This document shows positions 13,609 through 36,841 of a DNA stretch of 64,000 bases, piece after piece. The position numbers and the translations under genes were made by a program. How positions within the stretch are numbered: the stretch's first letter is position 1; every line of letters begins with the position of its first letter. The notes below the pieces were generated by a model that ran no database searches, was not told the origin of the DNA, and saw nothing but the letters and a program-made list of their open reading frames with translations. Source of the stretch: Halorubrum sp. GN11_10-6_MGM (GTDB lineage: Archaea > Halobacteriota > Halobacteria > Halobacteriales > Haloferacaceae); the NCBI RefSeq assembly GCF_005435165.1, contig NZ_SGUC01000001.1, positions 1 through 64,000 of the forward strand. The letters run 5' to 3'.

Positions 13609-14733
13609 TCAGTCGAACCCGCTCACCAGCGTCACGACCCATTGCCCGAGGTCGTACTCCGCGCGGACCTCCACGCGCGTCACCCACTTCACCCACTGGA
13701 ACCCCCGCCTGTCGGGCGCGACGAGCCGGGCGGGCGCGCCGTGGCCGTGGGTCAGGCGCTCGCCGCCGACGTGGGTGGCGAGCAGTGCGTCCTCCGCCTC
13801 CTCGATCGGGAGGCTCCACCGGTACCCCGTCACGGAGGTGAACCGGACGTAGGCGGGCTCGCGGTCGACGGCGGTTCCGTCGTCGGCCTCGCTCGCGGCC
13901 TCGACTCCGCCGGCCGCGTCGAGCAGGTCGCCGACGCGGATTCCGCCCCACTCTTGGACCGTGTACCACCCGCTGGTACAGTCGAGGAGGGCCTCGGTCT
14001 CGTGGCCCGCCGCGAGCTCGTCGGCCGTCAGCTCGACTGAGTCGGCGACGAGCCCGTCGACCGTCAGCCGGTACTCGTCGCGGTCGATCGGGTCGGGGTC
14101 GTCCGCGACCCACGAGGTGATCGGGAAGGCGCCATTGCCCGCGCCCTCGCGGGGCTGTGACCCGGTGAACCGGCGGTCCGCGCCCGCGGTGTCGAGCGCG
14201 TCGTTGACCCCCTGCTGGAGCCGGTACGTCGCGCCGCCGGCCGCGAGCAACGCGAAGTAGCGGACCGCGGTCCGCCGGCGCTCGAAGTCGACGCGGCGGG
14301 GGAGCCGGAACCGAGTGGCGGCGTGTGCGGCCACGAGCGGGACTAAGACGAGCCCGAAGCCGACGTGGACGGACAGCAGCGTCCAGTACGAGAGCCGCAC
14401 GTCGAGCCCGAACACCCACGCGGCGCCGGTCCCGATCGCGCCGACCGCGGCGACGAGCGTCAGGACGGAGAGGGCGGTCGACCGCCGCCAGAGGTTCGGG
14501 TCGGTGAGCCGGCGGCGGACGCGCGCGAGCTTCCACGCGAGCAGCGCGACGATCCCGACGCCGAGCGCGCGGTGGAGCCAGAACAGGGGCCATCCCGCCG
14601 GAACGCCGACGGTGAACGAGACCAGCCCGGTGACCGCCTCGGCGACGACGAAGAGGAGGAGCGACCAGTCGACCGCGCGCGGCGGCGGCTCTAGCCGGTC
14701 GAGCGCGGTCCGGAGTCGGTCCCTCGCGGCCAT
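13609..14733 (-). CDS. Membrane molybdopterin oxidoreductase with N-terminal cytochrome-b-like domain
   Basis: 374 residues. About four to five transmembrane helices fill residues 20-185, with histidines in LFWLHRALG, LLSVHVGFG and VAAHAATRF placed like haem ligands of cytochrome b561-type domains. A molybdopterin-binding domain follows (about 200-374), with the likely Mo-ligand Cys in LLDCTSGWYTVQEWGG. This resembles an MsrP/MsrQ or sulfite-oxidase pair joined in one chain, with electrons passing between the membrane and the Mo site. The substrate is unknown. The gene is convergent with hef. Compare the other Mo protein at 2752, whose membrane part lacks this histidine pattern. Confidence 0.8.
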   Translation of the reverse strand: MAARDRLRTALDRLEPPPRAVDWSLLLFVVAEAVTGLVSFTVGVPAGWPLFWLHRALGVGIVALLAWKLARVRRRLTDPNLWRRSTALSVLTLVAAVGAIGTGAAWVFGLDVRLSYWTLLSVHVGFGLVLVPLVAAHAATRFRLPRRVDFERRRTAVRYFALLAAGGATYRLQQGVNDALDTAGADRRFTGSQPREGAGNGAFPITSWVADDPDPIDRDEYRLTVDGLVADSVELTADELAAGHETEALLDCTSGWYTVQEWGGIRVGDLLDAAGGVEAASEADDGTAVDREPAYVRFTSVTGYRWSLPIEEAEDALLATHVGGERLTHGHGAPARLVAPDRRGFQWVKWVTRVEVRAEYDLGQWVVTLVSGFD

Positions 14734-32263: not shown

Positions 32264-32284
32264 GAGTAATGAGTAAGTATATAT
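32264..32284 (+). promoter_or_regulatory. Promoter of the sugar ABC operon with GAGTAA repeat
   Basis: TATATAT (32278-32284) is about 32 bases before the ATG. It is preceded directly by a 7-base tandem repeat GAGTAAT-GAGTAAG (32264-32277) in the place where archaeal activators or BRE-adjacent factors bind. The full TrmB-type site TACT-N8-GAGTA was looked for and not found. Confidence 0.5.
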
Positions 32285-32315
32285 GCCAAACGTCCATTGA
32301 CCAACGTGAAGTACC

Positions 32316-33639
32316 ATGACAGACCAAGACTCGCGGTTATCTCGGCGCCACTTCGTCGGCGCGACTGGGGCAGCGACGCTCGCAGGGCTCGCCGGCTGTT
32401 CCGGCGGCGGAGACGGGGGAGACGGCGGCGACGGCGGTGACGGTGGCGATGGCGGCAGCGGCGGAGGGGGGAACACGCTCGAAGTGCTCCACGGTTGGAC
32501 CGGCGGCGACGGCGCGCGCGGCGGAGGCGCTCGTCGCTGCGTTCGACGAGGAGTACCCGGACGTCGAACACGAGTTCAACCCGATCGGCGGCGGCGGGAA
32601 CCAGAATCTCGACGCGGTCGTCGCGAACCGACTTCAGAACGGGGACCCGCCGAGTTCCTTCGCCAACTGGCCCGGCCCGAACCTCCAGCGCTACGAGGGC
32701 GTGCTGGGCGAGGTCGACGACGTGTGGGAGTCGGAAGGCTTCGAGGACGTGATGGTCCAAGAGGCGGTCGACCTCCACCAGTACAACGGCGCCTATCGCG
32801 CGGTTCCGCTGGGCTCGCACCGCCTGAACTGCCTGTTCTACAACACGTCGGTCGTCGAGGAGGCGGGGGTCGACCCCGACTCGCTGACGAGCGTGTCGGC
32901 GCTGATCGACGCGCTGGAGACCGTCCAGAACGAGACGGACGCGATTCCGATGACCCACGGCGCGAGCGGCACCTGGACGACGACCCAGCTGTTCGCCTCG
33001 ACGATGCTCGGTCAGGAAGGGTACGAGGCGTACATGAACTTCCTCGACGGGAGCCCCGACGAGGCGGCCGTCCAGGCGACCTTCGAGTCGCTCGCGGAGA
33101 TCCTCGGGAACTACATCAACGAGGACGCCTCCTCGATCGGACTCACGGAGTCCAACCAGAACATTATCGAGGGGAACGCGGCGTTCATCCACCAGGGTAA
33201 CTGGGCCGCCGGCGCCTATCGGAACGCCGAGGACTTCAACTACGACGAGGACTGGGGCTTCAAGACGTACCCCGGCTCGGAGGGCATGTACATGCTCCAC
33301 TTCGACTCGTTCCTCTACCCCTCGAACAACCCGAGTCCGGACGTGACGGACCAGTTCATGGCTTTCGCCGGGAGCGAGGCGGCGCAGGTCGCGTTCAACC
33401 AGTATAAGGGGTCGATCCCGACGCGCACCGACGTCGACATGAGCGAGTTCGGGCCGTACCTCCAGGAGACGCAGCAGGACTTCGCCGAGGCGGACGAGCG
33501 GCCGCCGAACCTCCAGCACGGGCTGGGCGTTCCCTCGGAGACCATGACGGCGCTGAACGACGTGATCTCCAGCGAGTTCTCCGGACCGTACAACGTCGAG
33601 GCCGCGGCGGAGGGCTTCGTCGACGCGGTCTCTAACTGA
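32316..33639 (+). pseudogene. Sugar ABC transporter solute-binding lipoprotein, frameshifted
   Basis: The first 66 codons give a Tat lipoprotein signal (twin Arg in LSRRHFVGATG, lipobox LAGC) and a Gly/Asp-rich linker. They then read VLHGWTGGDGAR before the frame is lost at the GC run 32512-32520. The next frame continues as ARAAEALVAAFDEEYPDVEH and runs to 33639 as a family-1 type sugar-binding protein of normal length (about 440 residues in all). A loss of 2 bases, or a gain of 1, in the GCGCGCGCG tract explains the break. It may be a true mutation, a slippage switch or a sequencing error. The rest of the operon is intact. Confidence 0.75.
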
Positions 33640-33692: not shown

Positions 33693-34679
33693 ATGACACG
33701 GAACACTGACACCGGCGACGACAGTGGCGACGCACTTCCCGACGGTGGCGTCGCGGAGAGCGGACAGCGCTCCGGGTTCAGCCCGGTCTCGGCGCTGAAC
33801 GAACGCTTCGGCAGCGACTTCGTGGAGTCGTCGCAGTTCTGGCTGCCGCCGTTCCTGCTGGTGGGTCTCTTCGTCTACGGCGCGATCATCTGGAACCTCC
33901 TGATATCGCTGACGGATTTCACCGGCTTCGGGACCCCGGACTACGGCGACTTGGACCTCGAGATGTACAGCCGCGCGTTGGCGGACAGCGGATTCGTCGA
34001 CGCCGCGATCAACACCTTCATCCTGCTCGTTGGGTTCACCCTGGTGACGCTGGCGCTCGGCCTCGGCCTGGCGATCCTGATCGACCGCAACATCCGGTTC
34101 GAGAACACGTTCAGGACGATCTACCTGTTGCCGATGAGCCTCTCGTTCGTCGTCACCGCCCAGTTCTGGGCGTGGATGTTCAACTTCAACAACGGGGTGA
34201 TAAACATCGTCATCACGTCGCTCGGCTTCGGCCGAGTCGACTGGATCGGGAATCCCGACATCGTCCTCTGGGCGGTGATGTTCGCGCTGATGTGGCAGTT
34301 CGCGGGGTACGCGATGGTGGTGTTCCTCGCGGGCCTGCGGGCCATCCCGGACGAACACTACGAGGCGGCGAAGGTCGACGGCGCCTCCACGGTCAGGATG
34401 TACTGGCGCGTGATCATTCCCCAGCTGAAGGGGTCGACGATCAGCGCCTCGGTCGTCCTGATGGTGTTCGCCCTGAAGGCGTTCGACTTCCTGTACTCGC
34501 TCGTCGGCGGGTACCGACCGCCGAACGGGGCCGACATCCTCGCGACGAAGATGGTCCGTGAGGCGTACGCGAACCTGAACTGGGCGTACGCCTCGGCGGT
34601 CGCCATCACCCTGTTCCTGATGACCCTCGGCATCGTCGGACCGTACCTCTACTACCAGTACAATCGGGGGAACCTATGA
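33693..34679 (+). CDS. Sugar ABC transporter permease (MalF/UgpA type)
   Basis: 328 residues with about six transmembrane helices after a hydrophilic 45-residue N-terminus. The EAA loop reads YEAAKVDGASTVRMYWRVII near 222-241, which contacts the ATPase. It forms a heterodimer with the next gene product. Its stop overlaps the start of that gene (ATGA). Confidence 0.88.
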   Translation: MTRNTDTGDDSGDALPDGGVAESGQRSGFSPVSALNERFGSDFVESSQFWLPPFLLVGLFVYGAIIWNLLISLTDFTGFGTPDYGDLDLEMYSRALADSGFVDAAINTFILLVGFTLVTLALGLGLAILIDRNIRFENTFRTIYLLPMSLSFVVTAQFWAWMFNFNNGVINIVITSLGFGRVDWIGNPDIVLWAVMFALMWQFAGYAMVVFLAGLRAIPDEHYEAAKVDGASTVRMYWRVIIPQLKGSTISASVVLMVFALKAFDFLYSLVGGYRPPNGADILATKMVREAYANLNWAYASAVAITLFLMTLGIVGPYLYYQYNRGNL

Positions 34680-35620
34680 GCAACGACGCACGAACCGACG
34701 GCGGCACGGCATCGGCGACGGACACCGGCGCGTCAGCGGGAGCGCTCGCCCGGATCGACGGGTACCGAATCCTGCTGTATCTCGGGCTGGTCGGAATGTT
34801 GGCGTTCTTCCTGATTCCGATCGAGTCGGGGCTCGTCACCTCGTTTAAGACGCCGGGCGGCGTCTCCGGGTCGCTTCCCTTCGCACCGCCCACGTCGAGC
34901 ACGTTCACTCTCGAAAAGTGGCAGTCCGCGTTCGACGCGCTCGGGCGGGGACTGATAAACAGCGCGCTGTACGCGATCCCGGCGACCGTCATCTCGGCGC
35001 TGCTCGGAAGCTTCGCCGCCTACGGGATCACGCAGTCCAACTGGAAACAGAAGTACAAGGCGCCGCTCCTCGCGCTGTTCGTCGCCGGGATTTTCATCCC
35101 CTATCAGGCCGTTCTCGTGCCGCTCTCGCAGTTCTGGTCGATGGTCCCGCTCCAGGAGTGGCTGGGATTCCTGTGGGCGCTCGGGATCAACAACGACTAC
35201 GTGGGCGTCATCGAACTGATCGTCACTCACGTGGCGTACGGACTGCCGATCTGTACCGTTCTGTTCAGGTCGTACTACAAGAACATGAGCGAGGAGATGA
35301 TCGAGGCCGCGCGGCTGGACGGCGCGTCCATCCGCCGGATCTACCGCCGCATCGTGCTCCCGCTCTCGGGACCGATGTTCGCGGTGGTCCTCATCTATCA
35401 GTTCACGCAGATCTGGAACGACCTCCTGTTCACGCTCGTGTTGGTTCAGACCGAATCCAGCGCGGCGGCGCCGATCGTGTTGATCCTCGCCGGACTGGGG
35501 ACGTCGCTCGAAGGCCAAGACTTCGCGCTCCGAATGGCGGGCGCGTTCATCGCCGCCCTGCCGACGCTCGCGGTGTACATCGCGTTCGGCGAGGAGTTCG
35601 CCGAGGGGGTGGCGACATGA
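34676..35620 (+). CDS. Sugar ABC transporter permease (MalG/UgpE type)
   Basis: 314 residues, six transmembrane helices. The EAA loop reads IEAARLDGASIRRIYRRIVL near 206-225, and the family's C-terminal half follows. It is co-translated with the upstream permease, and its own stop overlaps a 34-codon ORF. Confidence 0.88.
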   Translation: MSNDARTDGGTASATDTGASAGALARIDGYRILLYLGLVGMLAFFLIPIESGLVTSFKTPGGVSGSLPFAPPTSSTFTLEKWQSAFDALGRGLINSALYAIPATVISALLGSFAAYGITQSNWKQKYKAPLLALFVAGIFIPYQAVLVPLSQFWSMVPLQEWLGFLWALGINNDYVGVIELIVTHVAYGLPICTVLFRSYYKNMSEEMIEAARLDGASIRRIYRRIVLPLSGPMFAVVLIYQFTQIWNDLLFTLVLVQTESSAAAPIVLILAGLGTSLEGQDFALRMAGAFIAALPTLAVYIAFGEEFAEGVAT

Positions 35621-35722: not shown

Positions 35723-36841
35723 ATGGGAACGCTCGAACTCGACGGCGTGACCAAGGTGTTCCCCGACGGCGACGGCGAGGTCGTCGCCGTCGACGACGTC
35801 AACATCGAGATGCGCGACGGCGAGTTCCTCGTCGTCGTCGGTCCCTCGGGCTGTGGCAAATCGACGACGCTCCGGATGGTCGCGGGGCTGGAGACGGTCA
35901 CCAGCGGCGAGATCCGGCTCGCGAGCAACGTCATCAACGACGTGAAACCCCAACACCGGGATATCGCGATGGTGTTCCAGTCGTACGCGCTGTACCCGCA
36001 CATGACGGTGAAGGGGAACATGGCGTTCGGCCTCGAAGAGTCGACGGACCTCTCCGACGAGGAGATCGAGACGCGCGTCACCGACGCCGCGGCGACGATG
36101 GGTATCGCCGAACTGCTGGACCGGAAACCGTCCGACCTCTCCGGCGGCCAGCAACAGCGGGTGGCGCTCGGGCGGGCGATCGTCCGCGACCCAGAGGTGT
36201 TCCTCATGGACGAGCCGCTCAGCAACCTCGACGCCAAGCTCCGGTCGGAGATGCGGACGGAGCTCCAGCGCCTCCAGAGCGAGCTCGACGTGACGACGAT
36301 GTACGTCACGCACGACCAGACCGAGGCGATGACGATGGGCGACCGCATCGCGATCCTCAACGCCGGCGAGCTCCAGCAGGTCGCGACGCCGCTGGAGTGT
36401 TACCACGAGCCGGCGAACCGGTTCGTCGCCGGGTTCATCGGCGACCCGTCGATGAACTTCTTCGACGTCGAACGAGACGGTGACACGCTCATCGGCGACA
36501 CCTTCGACTACCCGCTCTCCCAGTCGACGCTCGACGACATCGGCGACGTGACCGACCTCACCCTCGGGATTCGGCCCGAGGACATCACCGTGACCGAGGA
36601 CGCGAGCGGCGACCACACCTTCTCGACGGTCGTCGAGGTCGTCGAGCCGATGGGCGACGAGAACACCGTCTACCTGCGGTTCGAGGACGCCCCCGAGGGC
36701 GAGACGTTCATCGCCACCGTCGGCGGCCTCCAGCGGATCTCGGTCGGCGACGAGATCAGCATCGAGATCCCCGAGAAGGCGATCCACCTCTTCGACGGGA
36801 GCACGGGAGAAGCGGTCCACAACCGCGACATCGAGGAGTAG
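35723..36841 (+). CDS. Sugar ABC transporter ATP-binding protein (MsmK/UgpC type)
   Basis: 372 residues. Walker A is GPSGCGKST near 39-47, the signature is LSGGQQQR near 138-145, Walker B/D-loop is VFLMDEPLSNLDAKLR, and the switch His is in YVTHDQTEA. The C-terminal 130 residues form the OB/TOBE regulatory domain with LTLGIRPEDI. With the two permeases it makes an importer for a mono- or oligosaccharide; the sugar is not predictable. No sugar-processing enzyme is adjacent. Confidence 0.92.
   Translation: MGTLELDGVTKVFPDGDGEVVAVDDVNIEMRDGEFLVVVGPSGCGKSTTLRMVAGLETVTSGEIRLASNVINDVKPQHRDIAMVFQSYALYPHMTVKGNMAFGLEESTDLSDEEIETRVTDAAATMGIAELLDRKPSDLSGGQQQRVALGRAIVRDPEVFLMDEPLSNLDAKLRSEMRTELQRLQSELDVTTMYVTHDQTEAMTMGDRIAILNAGELQQVATPLECYHEPANRFVAGFIGDPSMNFFDVERDGDTLIGDTFDYPLSQSTLDDIGDVTDLTLGIRPEDITVTEDASGDHTFSTVVEVVEPMGDENTVYLRFEDAPEGETFIATVGGLQRISVGDEISIEIPEKAIHLFDGSTGEAVHNRDIEE

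Follow-up and report, generated by a model that had tools for sequence, protein, structure and literature searches.

Organization of the transporter locus

The DNA analysed here, which we call the window, covers the opening 64 kb of contig C99 (244,706 bases), part of a draft assembly of 3.32 Mb in 200 contigs. At the lipoprotein gene, the nearest named relatives belong to Halorubrum (H. coriense, H. ezzemoulense and Halorubrum sp. Atlit-26R). The locus contains the following features:

32268..32315, + strand: upstream stretch with a AATGAGTAAGTATATATG block, conserved and common to most of the 12 close relatives in the alignment
32316..32511, + strand: 5' part of the broken gene, with the start, putative twin-arginine (RR) signal, putative lipobox (LAGC) and Gly/Asp/Ser linker; relatives read alike
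32512..32520, + strand: GCGCGCGCG run, the site of the frame change, where the 12 close relatives have 2 more bases in the alignment
32521..33639, + strand: remainder of the broken gene in another frame, predicted mature solute-binding domain (SBP_bac_8 / SBP_bac_1), with no internal stop
33693..34679, + strand: ABC permease (BPD_transp_1; GlcT-like), intact
34676..35620, + strand: second ABC permease (BPD_transp_1; GlcU-like), intact
35723..36841, + strand: UgpC/MalK-type ATPase of the transporter, intact

The stretch directly upstream of the start is likely to be a promoter region, in which the AATGAGTAAGTATATATG block may represent a TATA box. From their motifs, we take the elements of the 5' part to be a twin-arginine signal and a lipobox. 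The preliminary description of this locus held that the rest of the operon is intact, and this is borne out by both permease genes and the ATPase gene, which are whole.

The mature domain matches the Pfam families PF13416 (SBP_bac_8; 1.6e-22, 81.1 bits, above the gathering score of 27) and PF01547 (SBP_bac_1; 8.4e-17, 62.6 bits, above the gathering score of 26). Sugar-binding proteins of solved structure are matched as well, among them the glucose-binding protein PDB 2b3b (1e-32), and the gene adjoins the permease and ATPase genes. The operon is that of a sugar ABC transporter of the CUT1 type. It resembles such transporters (archaeal GlcS and 2b3b) both in its domain matches and in the order of binding protein, two permeases and UgpC/MalK-type ATPase. 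It differs from GlcS in being frameshifted and in its score against the archaeal GlcS model NF040930 (3.2e-22), where 79 bits fall short of the equivalog cut-off of 500, so that the match does not establish glucose as the substrate. The genome holds seven SBP_bac_8 matches in all, the broken gene and six others, and a search for a second copy of the broken gene returned none at E <= 0.001.

The frame change in the binding-protein gene

The frame from the ATG at 32316 begins MTDQDSRLSRRHFVGATGAATLAGLAGCSGG, which covers the signal and the lipobox, and continues through the Gly/Asp linker to NTLEVLHGWTGGDGAR. This frame contains RRHFVGATGAATLAGLAGC and stays in register with the relatives as far as ...TGGDGAR. 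Beyond the GCGCGCGCG run (32512-32520), the conserved reading lies in another frame (AAEALVAAFDEEYPD...), which extends to the stop at 33639. Aligned at the DNA level with its 12 close relatives (Halorubrum sp. Atlit-26R and 11 genomes), the window shows a single gap of exactly 2 bases, located at this run, and a match in two pieces is likewise obtained against the proteins of genomes G011, G025 and G048. The frameshift in a GC run that had been proposed for this sugar-binding lipoprotein gene is thus real, and the protein restored by a change of 2 bases, given as 440 residues, has 441 by its coordinates. At the junction, the two frames overlap and can be joined cleanly, and there is no homopolymer slip site. 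An exact search of viral contigs with 36 bases across the junction, a search of little value, gave no match. Separately, the length of the Gly/Asp/Ser linker (window 32390-32470) is very variable among the relatives, and the frame is nonetheless kept in nearly all of them.

Intact and broken copies among relatives

We searched 170 genomes of the family and obtained 58 matches at E <= 1e-150, the window's own included, which leaves 57 relatives; at all 58 loci, the sequence preceding the mature part was read. The orthologue is intact in 54 of the 57, which read through in one frame from the signal to a full-length mature part. The remaining three copies differ from one another. G045 is without an in-frame signal, owing to one extra base directly before LHAWTGGDG (C1, upstream of 1550127), again between the signal and the mature domain. 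Projected onto the window, the extra base falls at 32484/32485, some 27 bases upstream of the window's own break, and it lies outside any GC run. In G147 (C1:710100-712000), codon 120 of the mature part is an in-frame stop. The G044 copy ends at a contig end and counts as neither intact nor broken. Ten further loci, several from species already counted, are all in frame. Among the relatives read, the break in the window is private to its genome. In the closest group (the window and 11 relatives, 91-94% identical), two of the 12 genes are broken between the signal and the mature domain.

Length and distribution of GC runs

The run at the site is 9 bases long in the window, 11 in G048 and 10 in G039, and it measures 3 to 7 bases in the remaining 55 relatives. 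A run of at least 9 bases is therefore kept in two of the 57 and interrupted in the others; Atlit-26R, which is outside the 57, has a run of 10. Five places in the window contain at least 9 bases of GC alternation, and 9 overlapping two-strand matches were observed against 27.9 expected from shuffles. Over the 244 kb of the contig, there are 29 GC runs of 9-11 bases, of which GCGCGCGCG alone coincides with a called frameshift. The run is thus an ordinary one: it is short, the genome has many like it, and it is not conserved among the relatives.

Constraint on the mature part and background of frameshifts

The mature part, free of internal stops, shows dN/dS values of 0.11-0.22 between the window and each of the 12 relatives, compared with 0.08-0.29 for the other computed pairs among the relatives. 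Its few private changes comprise five at codon position 3 and one each at positions 1 and 2. The mature part is under normal constraint, similar to that in pairs of other relatives. With no stop and normal constraint, the break must be either very recent or a sequence error, and the constraint test fits both equally.

For the background rate, 244 kb of the contig was compared with matching stretches of G045, G048 and G025 (244 kb each), G008 (64 kb) and G011 (48 kb); an earlier, looser scan was set aside, since its list contained many antisense-ORF artefacts. The places called number one in the window's genome (G000), one in G008, three in G011, four in G025, two in G045 and one in G048. These make 12 in 1,088 kb over six genomes, several of them doubtful (short N-terminal pieces, and pieces without a codon-position pattern). 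In the window's genome, the lipoprotein gene is the only frameshift called in 244 kb (470 gene-by-genome comparisons). A generally indel-ridden assembly is therefore unlikely, though one lone error may have occurred. If genes are taken as about 1 kb, we estimate from the 12 places a called rate of about 1% of genes. At that rate, about 0.1 broken copies are expected among the 11 close relatives, where one is observed, and about 0.6 among the 57, where two are observed, one of them through a stop rather than a frameshift. The coincidence with G045 is suggestive at most. The place called in G008 (C60:236544-252543, about 1817-1889) lies in the counterpart of window 13609-14733, and the compared relatives are intact there.

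Explanations of the break

We consider it probable that a recent 2-base slippage has inactivated the gene of a CUT1-type sugar-binding lipoprotein; the feature itself, a single private frameshift, is ordinary. The missing piece is one repeat unit of the GC run, as expected from slippage, and the longer run of G048 (11 bases against 9) fits this account. Replication slippage in the cell would have dropped one dinucleotide from this short run, in agreement with the observed size of the shift, and the frame would change between the signal and linker on one side and the mature domain on the other. Translation from the normal start should then yield the export signal followed by an out-of-frame, Arg-rich sequence, and the mature domain could be obtained only by internal initiation, in which case it would lack a signal. 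No binding protein would then arrive at the cell surface, and the transporter, although its other components are intact, should be left without its binding subunit, a loss expected to disable it.

The main rival is a sequence or assembly error, in which the gene of the strain is whole and one GC unit was dropped from the consensus where the sequence is rich in GC and of low complexity. The draft state of the assembly, with its 200 contigs, counts for an error and against recent loss; the highly repetitive Gly/Asp linker that precedes the break site also counts for an error. The mature part bears no mark of relaxed selection, and a signal of purifying selection is equally expected under an error. 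Base-calling indels, however, are mostly of single bases and in homopolymers, unlike the change seen here, and the contig has no other called frameshift despite its many GC runs of similar length. Recent loss is somewhat favoured, because what is missing from the dinucleotide run is a whole unit and because the 244 kb yielded no further frameshift call; we regard an error as rather unlikely. It is a more doubtful proposal that Halorubrum readily loses this gene, the transporter being dispensable or costly in some settings, so that the breaks in the window and G045 would reflect repeated selection. The two broken genes in the closest group agree with this variant of recent loss, as do the few places called per 244 kb in the window's genome (1) and in G045 (2). 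However, the background includes some caller artefacts and, by our estimate, puts one or two broken copies among 57 near expectation; moreover, the G045 break may itself be an error.

The preliminary description also offered phase variation and recoding; recent loss and sequence error stand, phase variation finds little support and recoding is contradicted. Under phase variation, the GC run would reversibly change length and switch the lipoprotein on and off. The repeat unit is indivisible by three and lies near the 5' end of a surface-protein gene, and a second species, G045, is frameshifted close to the corresponding place. Yet the run has just 4.5 units, the change in G045 is one extra base where there is no GC run, and none of the 28 other such runs in 244 kb has a called frameshift. 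A tract maintained for switching should be unusually long or else conserved; this one, interrupted in all but two of the relatives, is neither, and we therefore hold phase variation to be very improbable. Similarly slim is the chance that on/off mutations are concentrated in Halorubrum at the junction of signal and mature domain, with two species frameshifted independently at places about 27 bases from each other. Populations might then shed or regain the surface binding protein, for example under virus pressure or sugar scarcity. Programmed recoding, by ribosomal frameshifting or transcriptional slippage, would join both frames, and their overlap and clean join are compatible with it. The junction lacks a homopolymer slip site, however, and the readable close relatives all read straight through but one, which shifts elsewhere, so that recoding is barely credible. 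Programmed frameshifting was rejected on the ground that the frame transition is not conserved at the same place among orthologues.

If the recent loss is real, the strain would be impaired in the uptake of one sugar while keeping the rest of the transporter, which bears on annotation and physiology; if the break is an error, the sequence record needs correction. In either case, knowledge of archaeal gene expression is unchanged, and the second break, in G045, is the sole hint of anything beyond ordinary loss or error.

Comparison with known systems

With repeat-mediated phase-variable genes, the window gene shares a short repeat whose unit is indivisible by three, located early in the coding sequence of a surface protein. 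It departs from them in having no long or conserved tract: the repeat is a short one of a kind frequent in this genome, and the relatives do not conserve it. In the portions available of the literature on repeat phase variation in haloarchaea and other archaea, on frameshifted or pseudogene ABC transporters of Halorubrum and on haloarchaeal glucose transporters, we found no report of a loss of this lipoprotein gene. A survey of prokaryotes reports 206,991 genes with frame transitions in 1,106 genomes (PMC3711429). Like the isolated frameshifted genes and pseudogenes of prokaryotic genomes, the window gene has a private frame transition that its relatives do not conserve, and the dinucleotide size of the change is its one distinctive trait.
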